Shown here in pieces: positions 39,979-56,376 of a stretch of 64,000 nucleotides of DNA; position 1 is the stretch's first letter; each line of letters starts with the position of its first letter. Source of the stretch: Devosia lucknowensis (lineage in GTDB: Bacteria > Pseudomonadota > Alphaproteobacteria > Rhizobiales > Devosiaceae); NCBI RefSeq assembly GCF_900177655.1, contig NZ_FXWK01000001.1:1860001-1924000 (forward strand), given 5' to 3'. The position numbers and the translations under genes are program-made. Below the pieces are notes generated by a model. It saw only the letters and a list, made by a program, of their open reading frames with translations, was not told the origin of the DNA and ran no database searches.

Positions 39979-40929
39979 ATGCACGCGAAGGTCATCATCA
40001 TTGGCTCAGGCCCGGCCGGCTATACCGCTGCCATCTATGCGGCGCGCGCCATGCTCGAACCGGTCATGATTCAGGGCCTCCAGCCGGGCGGCCAGCTCAC
40101 CATCACCACCGATGTCGAGAACTATCCCGGCTTCGCCGATGTGATCCAGGGTCCCTGGCTCATGGATCAAATGAAGGCCCAGGCCGAGCATGTCGGCACG
40201 CGGATCGTCAACGACATCATCACCCATGTCGATTTTGATCGCCGGCCCTTTGTGCTGACCGGCGATAGCGGCGACACCTACACCGCCGACAGCCTCATCA
40301 TCGCCACCGGCGCACAGGCCAAGTGGCTCGGCCTGCCGTCCGAGCAGAAGTTCCAGGGTTTTGGCGTTTCGGCCTGTGCCACCTGTGACGGCTTTTTCTA
40401 TCGCGGCAAGCAGGTGCTGGTCGTGGGCGGCGGCAACACTGCCGTCGAGGAAGCCCTGTTCCTCACCAATTTCGCCGAAAAGGTCATCGTCGTGCATCGC
40501 CGCGACGAATTCCGCGCCGAGCGCATCCTGCAGGACCGACTGTTCAAGAACCCCAAGATCGAGGTGCGCTGGAACACCGAGGTGGTCGAGGTCGGCGGCG
40601 CGCCCATGCCGCCATCGGTCAATACCGTCACCCTCAAGGATCGTGTCTCGGGCAGGACTTACGAGCAGCCCATCGACGGCGTTTTTGTCGCCATCGGCCA
40701 CGCCCCCGCCACTGCCGTCTTCGCCGGCAAGCTGGACATGAAGCCGGGCGGCTACCTGCAGGTAAAGCCGGGGTCCACCGAAACCAATATTGCGGGCGTC
40801 TTCGCCGCAGGCGACGTCACCGACGATGTTTATCGGCAGGCCGTAACCGCCGCTGGCATGGGCTGCATGGCCGCGCTGGATGCGGAACGCTTCCTGGCGG
40901 AACACGAACTGGCGGAAGCTGCGGAATAA
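39979..40929 (+). CDS. trxB: Thioredoxin-disulfide reductase
   Basis: This cytoplasmic flavoenzyme of 316 residues reduces thioredoxin with NADPH. The FAD motif GSGPAGYTAAIYAAR lies at residues 10-24, the redox centre CATC at 133-136, the NADPH motif GGGNTAVEEA after it, and the C-terminal FAD motif GVFAAGDVTD. The start follows GGAG. The gene is 111 bases upstream of the LysR regulator in the same direction. That pairing is conserved in rhizobia, and the regulator there is linked to redox state. Confidence 0.96.
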   Translation: MHAKVIIIGSGPAGYTAAIYAARAMLEPVMIQGLQPGGQLTITTDVENYPGFADVIQGPWLMDQMKAQAEHVGTRIVNDIITHVDFDRRPFVLTGDSGDTYTADSLIIATGAQAKWLGLPSEQKFQGFGVSACATCDGFFYRGKQVLVVGGGNTAVEEALFLTNFAEKVIVVHRRDEFRAERILQDRLFKNPKIEVRWNTEVVEVGGAPMPPSVNTVTLKDRVSGRTYEQPIDGVFVAIGHAPATAVFAGKLDMKPGGYLQVKPGSTETNIAGVFAAGDVTDDVYRQAVTAAGMGCMAALDAERFLAEHELAEAAE

Positions 40930-41040: not shown

Positions 41041-41934
41041 ATGCTCGACTGGGACAAGCTTCGGATTTTCCACACCGCCGCCGAGTCGGGCTCTTTCACC
41101 CATGCCGCCGAAAAGCTCGGCATGAGCCAGTCGGCCGTCAGCCGGCAGATTTCGGCGCTTGAAGACGACCTGGGCCTCAAGCTTTTCATTCGACACGCGC
41201 GCGGCTTGGTGCTGACCGAAGTGGGCGAGCAATTGTTCCGCACCGCCCATCGCATGCACTGGGAGCTTCAGCAGGTCGAGACCCAGATGTCGGAAAGTCA
41301 GGACGTGCCGACCGGCCCCCTGATCGTTACGACCACCGTGGGTATCGGGTCGACCTGGCTCTCGTCGCGCCTCGACGAATTCCTCAAGCTCTATCCGCTG
41401 ATCCAGCTCGAAATTCGCCTCAACGATGCCGAGCTCGATCTGGCCATGCGCGAGGCCGACGTGGCCATCCGCCTGCACCGGCCCAACCAGTCGGAAATGA
41501 TCCAGCGCAAGCTGTTCACCGTGCACAACTACTTCTATGCGTCCAATACCTATGTCGACGAGCATGGCATGCCCGCCACGCCCGAGGATCTCGACAATCA
41601 TCGCATCATCAGCTTCGGCGAGCCGGTGCCATCCTACCTCGGCGACATCAACTATCTCGAGCGCATGGGGCGCAGCGACTCCAGTCCGCGCCGTGCCGCG
41701 CTGCGCGTCAATGCCATCTATGGCATGATGCAGGCCTGTCGCGCCGGCATCGGCATCGCCATGTTGCCCGCCTATGTCACCGAGAAGGAAGACGGGCTCG
41801 TGCAGGTCCTGCCCGAAATCGAGTTGCCGTCCTACGAAGCCTACTTCGTCTACCCCCCTGCCCTCAAGAATTCCAAGCGCGTCGGCGTCTTCCGAGACTT
41901 CCTGGTGTCGAAGGCCAGGGAGTGGAGCTTCTAG
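41041..41934 (+). CDS. lsrB: LysR family regulator, LsrB/VtlR type
   Basis: The 297-residue protein has the LysR winged helix at its N-terminus (FTHAAEKLGMSQSAVSRQIS) and a periplasmic-binding-like effector domain. Position next to trxB and the N-terminus MLDWDKLRIFHTAAESGSFT agree with LsrB of Sinorhizobium and VtlR of Brucella, from memory. Those regulators control small RNAs, envelope sugar and redox functions. A small RNA cluster with a shared promoter element begins 1.6 kb downstream. The gene symbol is by context, and orthology was not tested. Confidence 0.78.
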   Translation: MLDWDKLRIFHTAAESGSFTHAAEKLGMSQSAVSRQISALEDDLGLKLFIRHARGLVLTEVGEQLFRTAHRMHWELQQVETQMSESQDVPTGPLIVTTTVGIGSTWLSSRLDEFLKLYPLIQLEIRLNDAELDLAMREADVAIRLHRPNQSEMIQRKLFTVHNYFYASNTYVDEHGMPATPEDLDNHRIISFGEPVPSYLGDINYLERMGRSDSSPRRAALRVNAIYGMMQACRAGIGIAMLPAYVTEKEDGLVQVLPEIELPSYEAYFVYPPALKNSKRVGVFRDFLVSKAREWSF

Positions 41935-42888: not shown

Positions 42889-43404
42889 ATGCGCCCTGCC
42901 CTCGCAATCGCCATACTTCCGATCAGCGCCGCCCTTGCAGGCTCGGCGCAGGCACAGATGGCAACCATCGAGCCCGCGCAGGTTGGACAAATCTTCTGCA
43001 TCGGCAGTCTCGGCAACGACATGACGCCTGTAGCGGCCATGCTCACGGCCGACCTGCGCACCGTCATCGAAATGGCGATCGAGGCGAACACAGCCTTTGA
43101 ACTGGCCCATCCCGGCGATAAACCGCCGCTCGGCGACGGCCTGCCCTGGCGCAGCTTCCCGGACTATGCCGACGGTTGTTCGGTCGGCGCGGTGAGCGAG
43201 GATGTTTCGACGGCGACAGTCGAGATCCACTATACCTTTTCCGATGCGACCGACGCTAGCTACAGCGACACACTGTTGCTCCTGTCGGAAAATTTCGAGC
43301 CCGACATGCCGCACGTCTGGCGTGTCGACGACGTCCAAATGGTGGGCGGCAACAGCATGCGAGCGCTCCTCGATGCGGCTTTTGCAGCCGACGCGGCGCA
43401 ATAA
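42889..43404 (+). CDS. Secreted protein of unknown function
   Basis: The 171-residue product has a signal peptide (ALAIAILPISAALAGSAQAQ). The mature acidic domain contains two Cys (IFCIGSLG and YADGCSVG). I do not recognise the family. It follows the HAD gene by 29 bases and may share its transcript. A short GC-rich hairpin (43453-43467) lies after the stop. Confidence 0.7.
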   Translation: MRPALAIAILPISAALAGSAQAQMATIEPAQVGQIFCIGSLGNDMTPVAAMLTADLRTVIEMAIEANTAFELAHPGDKPPLGDGLPWRSFPDYADGCSVGAVSEDVSTATVEIHYTFSDATDASYSDTLLLLSENFEPDMPHVWRVDDVQMVGGNSMRALLDAAFAADAAQ

Positions 43405-43523
43405 TAGGCAGCATGTCGCCCGCTTTATGCGCAGTTTTGGCGCGCAAACCCCGCGACCGCCGGTCGCAGTTCAGCACTCAGTCGTTGATTTCATTGATGT
43501 TTTTATCGCCATATGCGTCATGC

Positions 43524-43578
43524 GCATGGCTGACATGATCCAGGTTAGGTTGGCGATCTCGCCGACCGGGCCTATATG
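43524..43578 (+). promoter_or_regulatory. Promoter 1 of the small RNA cluster with upstream element
   Basis: The upstream element GCATGGCTGACATG is at 43524-43537, the -35 TTGGCG at 43550-43555, then 17 bases, then the -10 TATATG at 43573-43578. The element begins 26 bases before the -35 and 49 bases before the -10, as in the other three promoters. Confidence 0.75.
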
Positions 43579-43584
43579 CACGGT

Positions 43585-43699
43585 CATCACAGCGGGTGTT
43601 TCTCCTCCCTCCCTTGCGCCCGCTGCGTTCCCTCCTGACCTGACCTTTGGTCGGTCACCCTTGGGCTCCGCTCTCCCCTCGAGCGGGGCCTTTCTTTTT
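43585..43699 (+). ncRNA. Small RNA 1, CUCCUCCC family
   Basis: The predicted transcript is about 115 bases. CTCCTCCC (43602-43609) lies in the loop of a hairpin closed by AGCGGG/CCCGCT (43591-43596, 43619-43624). A second hairpin follows (TGACCTGACC/GGTCGGTCA region). The intrinsic terminator is at 43664-43673 paired with 43681-43690, then TTTCTTTTT. The motif is complementary to Shine-Dalgarno sequences. This matches small RNAs known in Rhodobacter (CcsR) and rhizobia. The 5' end is estimated from the promoter. Confidence 0.75.
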
Positions 43700-43724
43700 G
43701 CCCTGACGTCACCCATGCAAAAAC

Positions 43725-43779
43725 GCATGGCTGACATGTCAGTTTCTGGATTGTCTATCAAACCAGTAGAGTTCATATA
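43725..43779 (+). promoter_or_regulatory. Promoter 2 of the small RNA cluster with upstream element
   Basis: GCATGGCTGACATG at 43725-43738 is identical to the first copy, with an extra shared C before it. The -35 TTGTCT is at 43751-43756, and the -10 CATATA at 43774-43779 follows 17 bases later. Spacings equal those of promoter 1 exactly. Confidence 0.75.
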
Positions 43780-43785
43780 GGCCTT

Positions 43786-43975
43786 GTTGCTGAGGCGCGC
43801 TCCGATCTCCTCCTCCCTTCGGACCCCGCATCGCAACAGCGGACTAAGGATCATCTCCTCCTCCCTTGATCCGAGGTCTATGGCAGAGCGGCATATCCTC
43901 CTCCCTTGCTCTCTGCCCCACTTTCGCCGGCTCAGCCGGTCGGGCTCCATCTCCGGATGGAGCCCTTTTTCTTTT
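43786..43975 (+). ncRNA. Small RNA 2, three CUCCUCCC hairpins
   Basis: The predicted transcript of about 190 bases has three hairpins that each display CTCCTCCC in the loop. They are 43801-43805 with 43819-43823 (motif 43810-43817), 43848-43853 with 43867-43872 (motif 43858-43865), and 43882-43888 with 43911-43917 (motif 43898-43905). A CCGGC/GCCGG hairpin and a terminator (43942-43950 with 43957-43965, then TTTTTCTTTT) close it. The three stems differ in sequence while the loops are alike, so the loop is what is conserved. Confidence 0.82.
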
Positions 43976-44043
43976 CGGCCATGCAACCTGTCACCACCCT
44001 GTCGAGTTGCCTACTTATTGGACAGATTGTCGCTGTGCCTAAT

Positions 44044-44098
44044 GCATAGCTGTCATGACGAGCCATGCATTGCTGACCAAACGGTCAAAACCTATATT
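44044..44098 (+). promoter_or_regulatory. Promoter 3 of the small RNA cluster with upstream element
   Basis: GCATAGCTGTCATG (44044-44057) matches the first copy at 12 of 14 positions. The -35 TTGCTG is at 44070-44075 and the -10 TATATT at 44093-44098, with a 17-base spacer. The register is the same as in the other promoters. Confidence 0.75.
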
Positions 44099-44104
44099 GC
44101 CTGT

Positions 44105-44299
44105 GTCGCTGGTGAAGCCGCTCCGTATCCTCCTCCCTCGGACCCGCTTCTTGCGACACCGGACCGACGCTGAATCCTCCTCCCTCAGCAACGGTCCACC
44201 GGTCTGGCGCATATCCTCCTCCCATGCGCAGGGCCAAAACTTGCGATTTGGCTTCGGCCCTATCATCAGGCTCCAACTTCGGTTGGAGCCTCTTTTTTT
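44105..44299 (+). ncRNA. Small RNA 3, three CUCCUCCC hairpins
   Basis: The predicted transcript of about 195 bases repeats the plan of small RNA 2. Hairpin loops with CTCCTCCC are at 44130-44137 (stem TCCG/CGGA), 44177-44184 (stem GCTGA/TCAGC, 44169-44173 with 44185-44189) and 44216-44223 (stem GCGCAT/ATGCGC, 44207-44212 with 44224-44229). The terminator is GGCTCCAAC-TTCG-GTTGGAGCC (44269-44290) followed by TCTTTTTTT, with a stable TTCG loop. Confidence 0.82.
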
Positions 44300-44320
44300 G
44301 CGCCGGCCTCAGCAGAATCT

Positions 44321-44375
44321 GCATGGCAGCACTTCCAATTGCGCGTTTGTGAAATCCTGCGCCGGGACCGATAGT
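44321..44375 (+). promoter_or_regulatory. Promoter 4 of the small RNA cluster with degenerate upstream element
   Basis: GCATGGCAGCACTT (44321-44334) keeps the first seven bases of the element. The -35 TTGTGA is at 44347-44352 and the -10 GATAGT at 44370-44375, again with 17 bases between. Offsets of 26 and 49 bases from the element start are the same as in promoters 1-3. Confidence 0.6.
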
Positions 44376-44381
44376 CACCTC

Positions 44382-44479
44382 AACGGCGGCGTTCGTGGTG
44401 ACCCGCCCCTCCAAGGTCAGAGGCTTCGGCCGAAGGCCCAATGGCTCCGCCCATCCCCTCGGGCGGAGCCTCTTTTTTT
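44382..44479 (+). ncRNA. Small RNA 4, divergent member without CUCCUCCC
   Basis: The predicted transcript of about 100 bases ends in a strong terminator, GGCTCCGCCC/GGGCGGAGCC (44443-44452 with 44461-44470), then TCTTTTTTT. It has CGCCCCTCC (44404-44412) instead of CTCCTCCC, and a TTCGGCCGAA self-complementary segment. It is supported by the promoter register and the terminator, not by loop motifs, so confidence is lower. Confidence 0.55.
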
Positions 44480-44609
44480 CCCCACATGGCAGGATCGACC
44501 CGGCACAAACTGCCTCGCGCCCGGCTTCGCAGCGCTTTCATCATTGATTTGACAGCGCTTTATTTCGGCACACCGCTTGCAACACATCCGGCAAAGCCGG
44601 AGCATCGCC

Positions 44610-45734
44610 ATGGTCGCCGTCAATTCCACATCCGCCTATGCCGCCTATCAGAGCTACGGTACGGCCTACACGTCCGCCGCCGCGACCCGGGCCAGCACTA
44701 CCGCCTCAACCAGTCAGGAAGCGGCACCATCGGCCGCCGAGGTCGTGCTGTCCGACGAAGCGAAGGCTGCACTGTCCGAGCGCAGCTTCGCATCCGTCAT
44801 CACCGACGCCCGGAGCAAGCTCGAAACCCTGCTCAAGGATGCGAGCCGCACCTCGCCGCTGCAGAAGGGCAAGCTGGCGCTCGACATGTCCAGCCTCGAT
44901 CATCGCGAACTCTACGCGATGTCGAGCGATGCCAGCTTTTCGGCCGAGGAACGCGACGCGGCGGGGCTTGAAATGCAGCGCCGCTTCGAGGCTGCGCTCT
45001 CCGGGCCCGCCGCCATCGCCGAGGTCACGGGCAACTACACCAATCTCTACAAGGCCGCCGCTGCCTATCTCGACGGCCTCGGCGCCGAGGAACGGGCCAG
45101 CACCGACTGGAAGTCCGGCCGCGATGCCGTCGCCGAAGGGCTGAAGCAGTTGCAGACCAAGCCGGGCACCCTGCCCGATGCCGGTGACAGCGACCCGGTC
45201 GCGCTCTATCTCGCGCTGACGGCCGTGGGCAAGGGGGCCGAGCCGGTATCCATGACCGACCTTGCCGGCAACACCCGATCGGCACTCGACCAGATTTATG
45301 CTCAGGCCAAGGCCAACGGCAAACTCGCCACCTTCAACCGCAATACCACGACCGGCACCTATGTCGACCTGGGCAAGCTTTCGAGCCGCGCCCTGTCCTC
45401 GATCGTCCTCGACAGGGAGGGCACGTTCACCCCGACCGAAGTCAACGCCGCCCGCTTCGCCCTGCAATCAAAGAGCGGCGCCACGCTGCTCGCGGGTTTC
45501 CAGTCGGCCAGCAAGTCCGGCGACCCCACCGCCTTCAGCCAGAACATCATCGCTGCCTTCAACTCAATGAGCAGCGAGGAACGCCAGGCCGTCGGCTGGT
45601 CCGACCAGCTCTACAAGGCCGCCATGCAATCCTATGCCAGCACCTCCAAGCTCATGGAGTTGTTTGGTCAGGCCACCGGCGGCGGATCGACGCCCGCCGG
45701 CCCCGGCAGCCTCGCGTCGCTGCTGGGCGGCTAA
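44610..45734 (+). CDS. Protein of unknown function, Ala/Ser-rich N-terminus
   Basis: The 374-residue product starts with an Ala/Ser/Thr/Tyr-rich unstructured region of about 50 residues. A mostly helical body follows, and the end is Gly/Pro-rich (GGGSTPAGPGS). There is no signal peptide or transmembrane helix. The low-complexity start recalls secreted flagellar or surface proteins of alphaproteobacteria, but I cannot assign a family. The ATG at 44610 follows GGAG at eight bases. It lies immediately after the small RNA cluster, 130 bases past the last terminator. Confidence 0.7.
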   Translation: MVAVNSTSAYAAYQSYGTAYTSAAATRASTTASTSQEAAPSAAEVVLSDEAKAALSERSFASVITDARSKLETLLKDASRTSPLQKGKLALDMSSLDHRELYAMSSDASFSAEERDAAGLEMQRRFEAALSGPAAIAEVTGNYTNLYKAAAAYLDGLGAEERASTDWKSGRDAVAEGLKQLQTKPGTLPDAGDSDPVALYLALTAVGKGAEPVSMTDLAGNTRSALDQIYAQAKANGKLATFNRNTTTGTYVDLGKLSSRALSSIVLDREGTFTPTEVNAARFALQSKSGATLLAGFQSASKSGDPTAFSQNIIAAFNSMSSEERQAVGWSDQLYKAAMQSYASTSKLMELFGQATGGGSTPAGPGSLASLLGG

Positions 45735-54149: not shown

Positions 54150-54815
54150 ATGCATCGTCAGACCCGCAAAAATCTTTTGAACATGGCCACCGGCGTCGCC
54201 GTTGCAGCAGCGGCCGTGGTTGTTTTCCTGCCCGCCGCCTATGCTGCGCCGGGCACCGTGACCAGCAATGTCAACGTTCGCTCCGGTCCGGGTACCAATT
54301 ATGCCGTCGTCGACGTGGCCCGTTCGGGTCAGCAGGTAGACGTGCAGCAGTGCCAGGGTTCGTGGTGCTACATTTCCAAGCCCGGTCCCGATGGCTGGGT
54401 GTCGTCCACCTACCTCACCGCTGGCGGTCGTCCGGTCAATCCGTCCAACCCTGGCCTCAGCTTCGGCTTCACGGTCGGCGGCCCGAACGGCCCGCAGATC
54501 AGCATCGGTGTCGGCAACCAGCCGCAGCCCCAGCCGCCGCGTCCTGGCCCGCGCCCGCCCGTCGTGCAGCCGGTTGACGAAATCTGCTTCTACGATCGCG
54601 CCCGCTTCCGCGGCGACAGCTTCTGCATGACCCCGGGTGAATCGACCCGCGACCTGCGCAGCTGGACCGACCGTATTTCCTCTATCGACAACCCGGGCGG
54701 CTACGAAGTCCAGGTCTGCTCGGAGCCCAACTATCGCTCCTGCCGCACCTACACCACCAGCGCCTCCTCGCTGGGTGACTTCGACGACTACATCGCCTCC
54801 ATCCGCACCCGCTGA
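54150..54815 (+). CDS. Secreted SH3b plus beta/gamma-crystallin-like protein 1
   Basis: The 221-residue product has a signal peptide (VAAAAVVVFLPAAYA), then an SH3b domain (SNVNVRSGPGTNYAVVD, CQGSWCYI, WVSSTYL). A Pro-rich linker follows (PQPQPPRPGPRPP), then a C-terminal region of two crystallin-like Greek keys (ICFYDRARFRGDSFCM, TDRISSI; DDYIASI). It probably binds wall or surface polymer in the periplasm. The ATG at 54150 follows GAGGGAG. An EcfG promoter precedes it. It is the first of three paralogues. Confidence 0.85.
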   Translation: MHRQTRKNLLNMATGVAVAAAAVVVFLPAAYAAPGTVTSNVNVRSGPGTNYAVVDVARSGQQVDVQQCQGSWCYISKPGPDGWVSSTYLTAGGRPVNPSNPGLSFGFTVGGPNGPQISIGVGNQPQPQPPRPGPRPPVVQPVDEICFYDRARFRGDSFCMTPGESTRDLRSWTDRISSIDNPGGYEVQVCSEPNYRSCRTYTTSASSLGDFDDYIASIRTR

Positions 54816-54837
54816 TGCACTTTCAGCGCTGAACATG

Positions 54838-54871
54838 GCGCCGCCCTCCCAAGGGGCGGCGCTTTGCTTTG
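54838..54871 (+). terminator. Intrinsic terminator after SH3b gene 1
   Basis: GCGCCGCCC (54838-54846) pairs with GGGCGGCGC (54854-54862), followed by TTTGCTTTG. Confidence 0.75.
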
Positions 54872-54924
54872 CGCGGCGTCATTTCCGCGCTAACCTCACC
54901 GATGTTCAAATCCGGGATCTCCTC

Positions 54925-55625: not shown

Positions 55626-56258
55626 ATGTCCAAGTCTTGCATCGTCTTCGGCGCCGCTATCGCCGCCATTTCGCTTGTGCCCACCATCGCGGTCCTGGCC
55701 GCGCCCGGCTACGCCACCAGCAGCGTCAATGTCCGCACTGGTCCTGGCACCGGTTACGCCAAGGTGGGTAGTCTGTCAGCCGGCGAAGTCGTCGACGTCA
55801 AGCAGTGCCAGGGTTCATGGTGCTTTGTTGATCGCGCCTCCGGCACCGACGGCTGGGCTTCGAAAAACTATCTCGCCCCTTACCAGGGCAATGGTGGCGG
55901 CCAGTCCAAGCCCGACATTCCGTTCAACTTCGGCATGACGGTCGGCTCCGGCGGACCGAGCTTCTCGTTCGGCATCGGCGATGCACCGCCGCCAGCGCCC
56001 GTCCCCGTGCCCGCCAAGGTCTGCTTCTTCAAGGGCAACAACTTCAGCGGCGCCCAGTTCTGCGTCAATGCCGGCACCGACGACCCCAATCTGCTCGGCG
56101 GATGGAACGACTCCATTTCCTCCATCAAGCTTCAGGGCGGCGCCCAGGTCACCGTCTGCTTGGACAATTTCTACAGCGGCGCCTGCACCACGATCGCCTC
56201 CGACAAGCCATTGCTTGGGGGCTACAACAACGCGATCTCGAGCTTCCAGGCCTTCTGA
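55626..56258 (+). CDS. Secreted SH3b plus beta/gamma-crystallin-like protein 3
   Basis: The 210-residue product has a signal peptide (IVFGAAIAAISLVPTIAVLA), an SH3b domain (SSVNVRTGPGTGYAKVG, CQGSWCFVD, WASKNYL) and a crystallin-like C-terminus. The latter holds two complete motifs of the N/D-N/D-x-x-S-S calcium type, NDSISS and NNAISS. It is the best candidate of the trio for calcium binding. A hairpin terminator follows its stop. Confidence 0.86.
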   Translation: MSKSCIVFGAAIAAISLVPTIAVLAAPGYATSSVNVRTGPGTGYAKVGSLSAGEVVDVKQCQGSWCFVDRASGTDGWASKNYLAPYQGNGGGQSKPDIPFNFGMTVGSGGPSFSFGIGDAPPPAPVPVPAKVCFFKGNNFSGAQFCVNAGTDDPNLLGGWNDSISSIKLQGGAQVTVCLDNFYSGACTTIASDKPLLGGYNNAISSFQAF

Positions 56259-56278
56259 CCCCGCTTGATTGAAATCAA

Positions 56279-56305
56279 GGCGCCGCCCATTGGGCGGCGC
56301 CTTTC
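56279..56305 (+). terminator. Intrinsic terminator after SH3b gene 3
   Basis: GGCGCCGCCC (56279-56288) pairs with GGGCGGCGCC (56292-56301) with a three-base loop and a short TTTC tail. Confidence 0.65.
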
Positions 56306-56376
56306 GCATGCCCGGTCGCCGGGCGGTAAAAGGGAGGAAAAACACCGCGGCGACCGGATGCGTGACCGTTATCGGT

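Follow-up and report, generated by a model that had tools for sequence, protein, structure and literature searches.

The DNA examined here is a 64-kb stretch of the soil bacterium Devosia lucknowensis (64,000 nucleotides, contig NZ_FXWK01000001.1, positions 1,860,001 to 1,924,000; hereafter the window). It carries four putative small RNA units in series on the + strand, between 43404, where an open reading frame (ORF) ends, and 44577, the ORF start of the gene that follows. Judged by gene order, this array occupies the place of abcR1/abcR2, downstream of trxB-lsrB, and its units are preceded by LsrB boxes; both facts were absent from a preliminary description of the locus. We consider it likely that LsrB activates separate short RNAs here, which silence mRNAs through pairing of their loops with Shine-Dalgarno sites. 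The evidence lies in RNA structure, constancy of loops, conservation of boxes, promoters and terminators, and synteny; transcription of the units, binding and activation by LsrB, and the targets are what we infer.

The motif CTCCTCCC occurs nine times on the two strands of the window against 3.1 +/- 1.58 expected, and none of 100 shuffles reached nine. Seven of the nine copies lie on the + strand inside 43602-44223, split 1+3+3 over units 1 to 3, and their position in hairpin loops, as originally claimed, was confirmed by count and folds. Folding z scores of units 1 to 4 are -7.20, -5.85, -6.93 and -2.20. Units 2 and 3 contain CCTCCTCCC six times, three per unit and all in loops, which are CCUCCUCCC loops. 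Unit 1 is devoid of CCTCCTCCC; it has one CUCCUCCCUCCC loop and a near-invariant unpaired UUCCCUCC. The latter is part of TGCGTTCCCTCC, which is invariant over the 33 aligned unit 1 sequences except for one letter, itself conserved in at least 90%.

Related loci were collected through lsrB. The best 80 of 132 relatives were kept, 76 of which have at least 1.8 kb of downstream sequence and form the synteny set. Alignment input consisted of 53 of the 80 kept loci and the window, 54 in all; 13 without two three-motif clusters were skipped and 41 remained. Our extraction rule yielded unit 1 from 35 and a unit 4 stretch from 29 of these 41, and a length filter removed two sequences of unit 1, two of unit 2 and one of unit 3. 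The final alignments, window included, comprise 33 (A1, unit 1), 39 (A2, unit 2) and 40 (A3, unit 3) sequences. RNA starts of units 1 to 3 were placed according to the -10 elements.

In the 112 aligned sequences of units 1 to 3, all 270 copies of CTCCTCCC are unpaired in the minimum-energy fold of their own sequence. When flanks were shuffled (every fourth sequence, 20 shuffles each), the motif stayed unpaired in 114/180 cases (63%) for unit 1, 251/600 (42%) for unit 2 and 263/600 (44%) for unit 3. Changes on both sides of a stem affect 31 pairs in A2, compared with 13.2 in shuffled alignments, and 30 pairs in A3, compared with 16.9; in neither case was any of 500 shuffles as high. Indeed, all five covariation measures of units 2 and 3 lie above all 500 shuffles. 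For unit 1 this holds for three of five measures, the other two being reached by 34 and 108 shuffles, and the middle helix of A1 is paired in only 45% of cells. Since stems change in pairs and loops remain constant across related loci, the central argument of the preliminary description, that selection works on the loop motif, is right.

Sequences of units 2 and 3, 80 in all, sort mostly by position in a tree, with 4 label changes against 27 in shuffled data, so the duplication is old. Exceptions are unit 3 of L169, placed among units 2, and unit 2 of L195, L196 and L204, placed among units 3; L198 and L200 fall on neither side clearly. Judging from these exceptions, some copies were probably replaced later by the neighbouring copy. 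Further copies occur as well. Devosia locus L177 has three three-loop clusters downstream of unit 1, and a three-loop copy like unit 3 lies at G006:C1:108581-108801 (L156), on another contig of one genus genome and away from lsrB.

A scan for E. coli-type promoters found none at the array. Promoter elements of alphaproteobacterial type are readable in all four units, and most of their letters are kept across the aligned loci. The published LsrB/VtlR consensus, GCAT-N3-TG-N3-T, is located at -61 to -49 of abcR1 (PMC8844928). Exactly this sequence begins at 43524, 43725 and 44044, about 60 nucleotides (nt) before the presumed starts of units 1 to 3, and unit 4 has it with one mismatch. Among 36 loci of the genus, the box is exact at 50 of 72 three-motif clusters, at a distance of 84-87 nt from the first motif; it has one mismatch at 19 and two at 3, the background at random positions being 0.16% exact. 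For unit 1, with a distance of 77-84 nt, 19 of 30 boxes are exact, 10 have a single mismatch and 1 has four mismatches (background 0.38%). In the own genome, GCATRGCTGWCATG occurs four times, three of them in the array, and the reversed pattern not at all. The composite of box, spacing and motif gives three matches in the own genome and none in 384 other genomes of the class; as only 4 of the 384 belong to the same order, this search tests chance, not kinship. Inspected by eye, the fourth exact box (G000:C1:2519495) and five similar sites from other genomes showed no evident common gene or RNA and were set aside.

Terminator-like sites number five within 43000-45000 against 1.7 +/- 1.4 in shuffles, and one, with a T-run, follows each unit. 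None of the eight tested ORFs of at least 70 amino acids in or across 43202-44968 has a match in Pfam, the sole homology search applied to them, in agreement with the proposal that no protein gene is supported in this stretch. The proposal that distinct small RNA genes follow one another with the same orientation is likewise supported by the units of promoter, hairpins and terminator, all on one strand. Of 11 genus loci inspected, six (L045, L047, L050, L051, L052 and L060) have an ORF between units 2 and 3 that encodes a small membrane protein, with about 53 amino acids counted from the common start and LKYLAVF as its end; the window does not have it. Together, conserved promoters, conserved terminators and this ORF suggest that the units are probably separate transcripts.

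A known cluster could nevertheless suggest a single one. CcsR1-4 of Rhodobacter sphaeroides (RF02791), like the array here, group small RNAs with this motif in one place, four in their case (PMC10253847), and they are described as cut by RNase E from one RpoH-driven transcript, the ccaF1 transcript, which includes a DUF1127 gene. If the array were such a precursor, RNase E would release the units from a long RNA and the inner terminators would only pause or trim; in addition to the clustering of similar hairpin RNAs, the CcsR1 model does match at the array. Its scores of 20.8 and 16.4 bits are far under the cut-off of 65.3, however, and DUF1127 is absent from the four flanking genes scanned (41041, 42131, 42889 and 44577). 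Unlike CcsR1-4, the units of the array have LsrB boxes and their own promoters and terminators. Box, promoter and a covarying terminator are conserved for each of units 1 to 3, and the small membrane-protein ORF sits between units 2 and 3 in several loci. We therefore regard processing from a common precursor as improbable and retain the reading of separately activated RNAs.

That reading requires a regulator. In the window, trxB is followed directly on its 3' side by a LysR-type gene, as is the case for LsrB/VtlR, and the encoded protein shares 84-97% identity with Devosia records and 55% with the protein of G058, a genome from another family of the order. LsrB is thus a candidate close at hand and, from the boxes and gene order, probably the regulator switching the array RNAs on. 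The Devosia LsrB has a single cysteine, at position 233; S. meliloti LsrB activity is said to need oxidation of two cysteines (PMC8844928). The gene order reported for Agrobacterium is trxB-vtlR-abcR1-abcR2 (PMC7486931), and abcR1/2 of Sinorhizobium adjoin lsrB (PMC8844928). In the window, lsrB lies 1.6 kb upstream of the array, with two protein genes in between. In other loci (e.g. L185, L193, L197, L221, L222, L232, L234-L237 and L239), the first motif follows lsrB by only 108-306 nt, which leaves no room for an intervening gene, as with abcR1.

Downstream of lsrB, at least two clusters of at least two motifs each are present in 59 of the 76 loci of the synteny set, one cluster in 12 and none in 5; opposite-strand clusters were found in none of the 76. 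Within the genus, DNA of the array locus is matched in 35 of 36 other genomes. G033, the only one devoid of the array, also has no lsrB match, which would fit joint loss or an assembly gap across the shared locus. Records containing the array are titled Devosia, Arsenicitalea, Pelagibacterium, Maritalea and Cucumibacter.

Twenty lsrB loci from other families of the order were compared as well. An exact box lies at most 400 nt after lsrB in six of them (L111, L112, L117, L122, L123 and L126) and at +2130 in L125; in all seven, C-rich stretches and T-runs come after each box. Exact boxes 1.3-3.8 kb away in L113, L119, L120 and L124 are probably due to chance. In G058, an exact box comes after lsrB and precedes two ar15/AbcR RNAs (127 and 119 bits), and six over-threshold ar14 copies are located elsewhere, four of them with an exact GCAT-N3-TG-N3-T upstream. 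Sub-threshold matches to SorX (RF02784) were noticed downstream of lsrB in L112 (3446-3518, - strand) and L126 (2401-2470, - strand); SorX and AbcR-type RNAs may be related.

Unit 1 resembles AbcR1, in that by its features it would work like AbcR1 and sits at AbcR1's place, downstream of lsrB/vtlR with an LsrB box; we do not file it under Rfam ar15. With AbcR1/AbcR2 (alpha-r15, RF02345) it shares the location after trxB-lsrB, the box and unpaired C-rich motifs, as well as the layout of a first hairpin with C-rich loop, a UUCCC stretch and a terminator. It differs in the two protein genes separating it from lsrB, in its CUCCUCCCUCCC loop, in the lack of ar15 matches in the genus and in being followed by three-loop RNAs instead of AbcR2. 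A model made from the 33 aligned unit 1 sequences (R1) was run on the 20 loci of other families. The two AbcR RNAs of G058 came first (23.7 and 20.1 bits; E 1.6e-5 and 1.9e-4). Five of seven weaker matches lie just downstream of lsrB at a box or a C-rich motif (L111 at 3794, L112, L118, L119 and L123), the others being off or unclear (L111 at 840, L113). Over whole genomes, R1 found nothing in G058 and unrelated matches of 20-29 bits in other families; such scores are background at genome scale, so that the evidence from R1 for kinship with AbcR is only suggestive. Weak R1 matches elsewhere in the window (54786-54872 and 56207-56310 on the + strand, 56270-56354 on the - strand; E 0.0012 to 0.032) are perhaps merely C-rich hairpins.

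Units 2 and 3 are, by build, of the NfeR1 (alpha-r14/cuckoo) type and could be expected to work like it, though we do not file them as members of Rfam ar14. They show the adjacent hairpins, unpaired CCUCCUCCC and variable stems with pairing kept that are typical of alpha-r14/cuckoo RNAs, and on sequence grounds they have an LsrB box and a sigma-70 promoter as at nfeR1. NfeR1 of S. meliloti is reported with the same traits, namely three hairpins with unpaired CCUCCUCCC, hypervariable stems, an LsrB site and a sigma-70 promoter (PMC10746234). It is 123 nt long, in contrast to the predicted 189-196 nt here, which include an extra hairpin and a terminator; furthermore, two tandem copies lie downstream of lsrB here, whereas a position of nfeR1 at lsrB is not among what PMC10746234 describes. 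Adjacent hairpins, the same CCUCCUCCC loop and variable stems are also shared by the cuckoo RNAs SmelA075 (three loops) and SmelA099 (four loops), for which the account in PMC3927594 mentions neither linkage to lsrB nor an AbcR-like partner. The preliminary description had compared the motif-bearing RNAs with CcsR and NfeR1. This stands for units 2 and 3; unit 1, with its CUCCUCCCUCCC loop and likeness to AbcR1, is of another kind, and unit 4 has no CTCCTCCC. Elsewhere in the own genome, a MmgR/suhB-like match just under the Rfam cut-off was seen at G000:C1:695047-695122 (L152; 37.5 bits, cut-off 41), with like scores in other genus genomes.

Support is weakest for unit 4, which has the least marked fold, no CTCCTCCC and one mismatch in its box. 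Possibly only units 1 to 3 are genes and unit 4 is a decayed copy in which the terminator alone has been kept; the absence of CTCCTCCC from all 29 aligned unit 4 stretches, and the fact that only 29 of 41 loci yielded such a stretch, agree with this. We rate this as rather less likely than not. Against it, 28 of the 29 loci have preserved the box-like site GCATG-N-C-(A or T)-G (exact, with TG, in 10; AG in the window and others), 28 have TTG of the -35 element and 27 have ATA of the -10 element. Moreover, R1 scores 44376-44479 with 32.1 bits (E 2.8e-8), partly via the similar terminator, and by eye its matches recur at the corresponding array end in other genus genomes; it also scores the 3' parts of unit 3 (29.8 bits) and unit 2 (26.8 bits). 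We continue to treat unit 4 as a candidate RNA.

According to the mechanism we propose, LsrB/VtlR would bind at the boxes, some 60 nt ahead of the starts, and activate sigma-70-type promoters, each giving one short RNA ended by its own terminator. Units 2 and 3 would present three CCUCCUCCC loops each and unit 1 one CUCCUCCCUCCC loop plus the unpaired UUCCCUCC; unit 4 would add a further RNA, with less certainty. By pairing with Shine-Dalgarno sites, the C-rich loops would block translation, by precedent of many solute-transport mRNAs. In S. meliloti, LsrB is reported to activate both AbcR1 and NfeR1, and the loops of NfeR1 to silence mRNAs (PMC8844928, PMC10746234), redundantly blocking ribosome sites of transport and ntrB mRNAs (PMC10746234). 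By analogy with this work on NfeR1, masking of ribosome sites by the array RNAs is plausible; for the alpha-r14/cuckoo type, such silencing by the loops is expected to be independent of Hfq.

Several results weigh against this interpretation or parts of it. No Rfam family matches anywhere in the window at curated cut-offs. A permissive search of the array region, made for that reason, gave ar14 (RF02344) for unit 2 (33.9 bits, E 2.6e-4) and unit 3 (33.4 bits, E 3.6e-4), well short of the cut-off of 58.8; the kinship with the NfeR1/CcsR kind envisaged earlier is upheld by these matches at sub-cut-off level. Under stricter filters, ar15 (cut-off 40) has no match at E 0.01 in 37 genus genomes, the own one included. 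Among the five lsrB loci without a motif cluster, L201 and L210 have no motif and L237, L239 and L240 single motifs. In the box of unit 4 in the window TG is changed to AG, a change also seen before the second AbcR of G058, and the abcR2 promoter of S. meliloti is reported to be independent of LsrB (PMC8844928). For these two reasons unit 4 may not be under LsrB control in this strain.

The search for targets weighs in the same direction. The pattern GGGAGGAG-N3..12-ATG has 19 matches, whereas its reverse has 2; of the 19, three are antisense within the array. Nine correspond to real ORFs, four of them for transport (three solute-binding proteins, one permease). A control Shine-Dalgarno sequence, AGGAGGAA, has 23 matches against 5 reversed; these concern 13 ORFs of at least 100 amino acids, and the 10 scanned include four solute-binding proteins. 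As the control gives as many transport genes, the enrichment is not specific and was rejected. Feedback through the GGGAGGAG located 29 nt before trxB in the window was rejected too, as unconserved: neither GGGAGGA nor GGAGGAG occurs in the 60 nt before trxB in any of 75 related loci.

CsrB-type RNAs carry many identical loops, and on their model the array RNAs might act as a sponge, titrating a protein that binds C-rich RNA, or another RNA, instead of pairing with mRNAs. Seven like motifs in separate loops, fixed in sequence on variable stems, fit dosage of one motif, and the target test delivered no specific target set. On the other hand, CCUCC is complementary to Shine-Dalgarno sites, and NfeR1 mutated in all three loops is reported to have lost repression of an ntrB reporter (PMC10746234). 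A sponge thus appears very improbable, and pairing of the loops with Shine-Dalgarno sites remains the mechanism we favour. Coordinates are collected in Table 1.

Table 1. Features of the array and its regulator gene in the window
Feature	Position	Strand	Evidence
trxB-like gene (thioredoxin reductase), next to lsrB on its upstream side	39979..40929	+	Pyr_redox_2, E 1.2e-54
LsrB/VtlR ortholog of LysR type, which probably activates the array	41041..41934	+	HTH_1, LysR_substrate
LsrB box of unit 1, GCATGGCTGACATG	43524..43537	+	exact against published consensus
Unit 1 promoter, TTGGCG-N16-CTATAT	43550..43577	+	
Unit 1, AbcR1-like RNA, about 116 nt from its predicted start	43584..43699	+	folding z, A1, R1 (113.6 bits)
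CTCCTCCC in hairpin loop of unit 1	43602..43609	+	loop reads TCTCCTCCCTCCC from 43601
TGCGTTCCCTCC of unit 1, candidate second anti-Shine-Dalgarno seed	43624..43635	+	A1 alignment, fold
Unit 1 terminator hairpin, followed by T-run	43663..43691	+	A1 helix 3, 99.2% paired
LsrB box of unit 2, GCATGGCTGACATG	43725..43738	+	exact consensus
Unit 2 promoter, TTGTCT-N17-CATATA	43751..43779	+	
Unit 2, cuckoo/NfeR1-like RNA with three loops, about 189 nt from its predicted start	43786..43974	+	folding z, A2 covariation, ar14
CCTCCTCCC in loops 1, 2 and 3 of unit 2	43809..43817, 43857..43865, 43897..43905	+	
Unit 2 terminator hairpin	43942..43965	+	A2 helix 8, both-side changes in 7/10 pairs
LsrB box of unit 3, GCATAGCTGTCATG	44044..44057	+	exact consensus
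Unit 3 promoter, TTGCTG-N16-CTATAT	44070..44097	+	
Unit 3, cuckoo/NfeR1-like RNA with three loops, about 196 nt from its predicted start	44104..44299	+	folding z, A3 covariation, ar14
CCTCCTCCC in loops 1, 2 and 3 of unit 3	44129..44137, 44176..44184, 44215..44223	+	
Unit 3 terminator hairpin	44268..44291	+	A3 helix 6, 98.8% paired, both-side changes in 6/10 pairs
LsrB-box-like site of unit 4, one mismatch, GCATGGCAGCACTT	44321..44334	+	alignment of 29 loci
Unit 4 promoter, TTGTGA-N17-GATAGT		+	
Unit 4, candidate RNA (about 97 nt)	44382..44478	+	terminator 44443-44470, without CTCCTCCC

Taken singly, the components of the locus are known: three-loop and four-loop RNAs, clusters of four, control by LsrB and tandem AbcR genes beside lsrB. 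The suggestion that the arrangement may be undescribed therefore has to be narrowed. Three-loop SmelA075 and four-loop SmelA099 (PMC3927594), as well as the cluster of four small RNAs CcsR1-4 (PMC10253847), have already been described; what appears to stand is the arrangement together with LsrB boxes beside lsrB. Among the matches listed in the open-access literature, we saw no account of an LsrB-boxed array that unites AbcR-like with three-loop RNAs, nor of small RNAs of this kind in Devosia. Both halves of the locus have counterparts in rhizobia; the combination of AbcR-like and NfeR1-like RNAs at one lsrB locus looks new.

We tentatively suggest that AbcR and NfeR1/cuckoo RNAs, at present regarded as distinct families, are branches of one LsrB-controlled family whose origin was tandem duplication next to lsrB. 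The joined state would have been kept by Devosia and its relatives, with AbcR-like and three-loop units in one array, while the three-loop members of rhizobia would have moved and retained their LsrB boxes. If our interpretation is true, a locus of 1 kb, near the gene of the likely activator, holds an AbcR-like and two NfeR1-like RNAs with the activator box and the anti-Shine-Dalgarno motif in common. The locus makes testable both the family relation of AbcR and NfeR1 and the question why RNAs with one, three and three loops share one activator, in a genus from the environment that is not one of the well-studied symbionts or pathogens.

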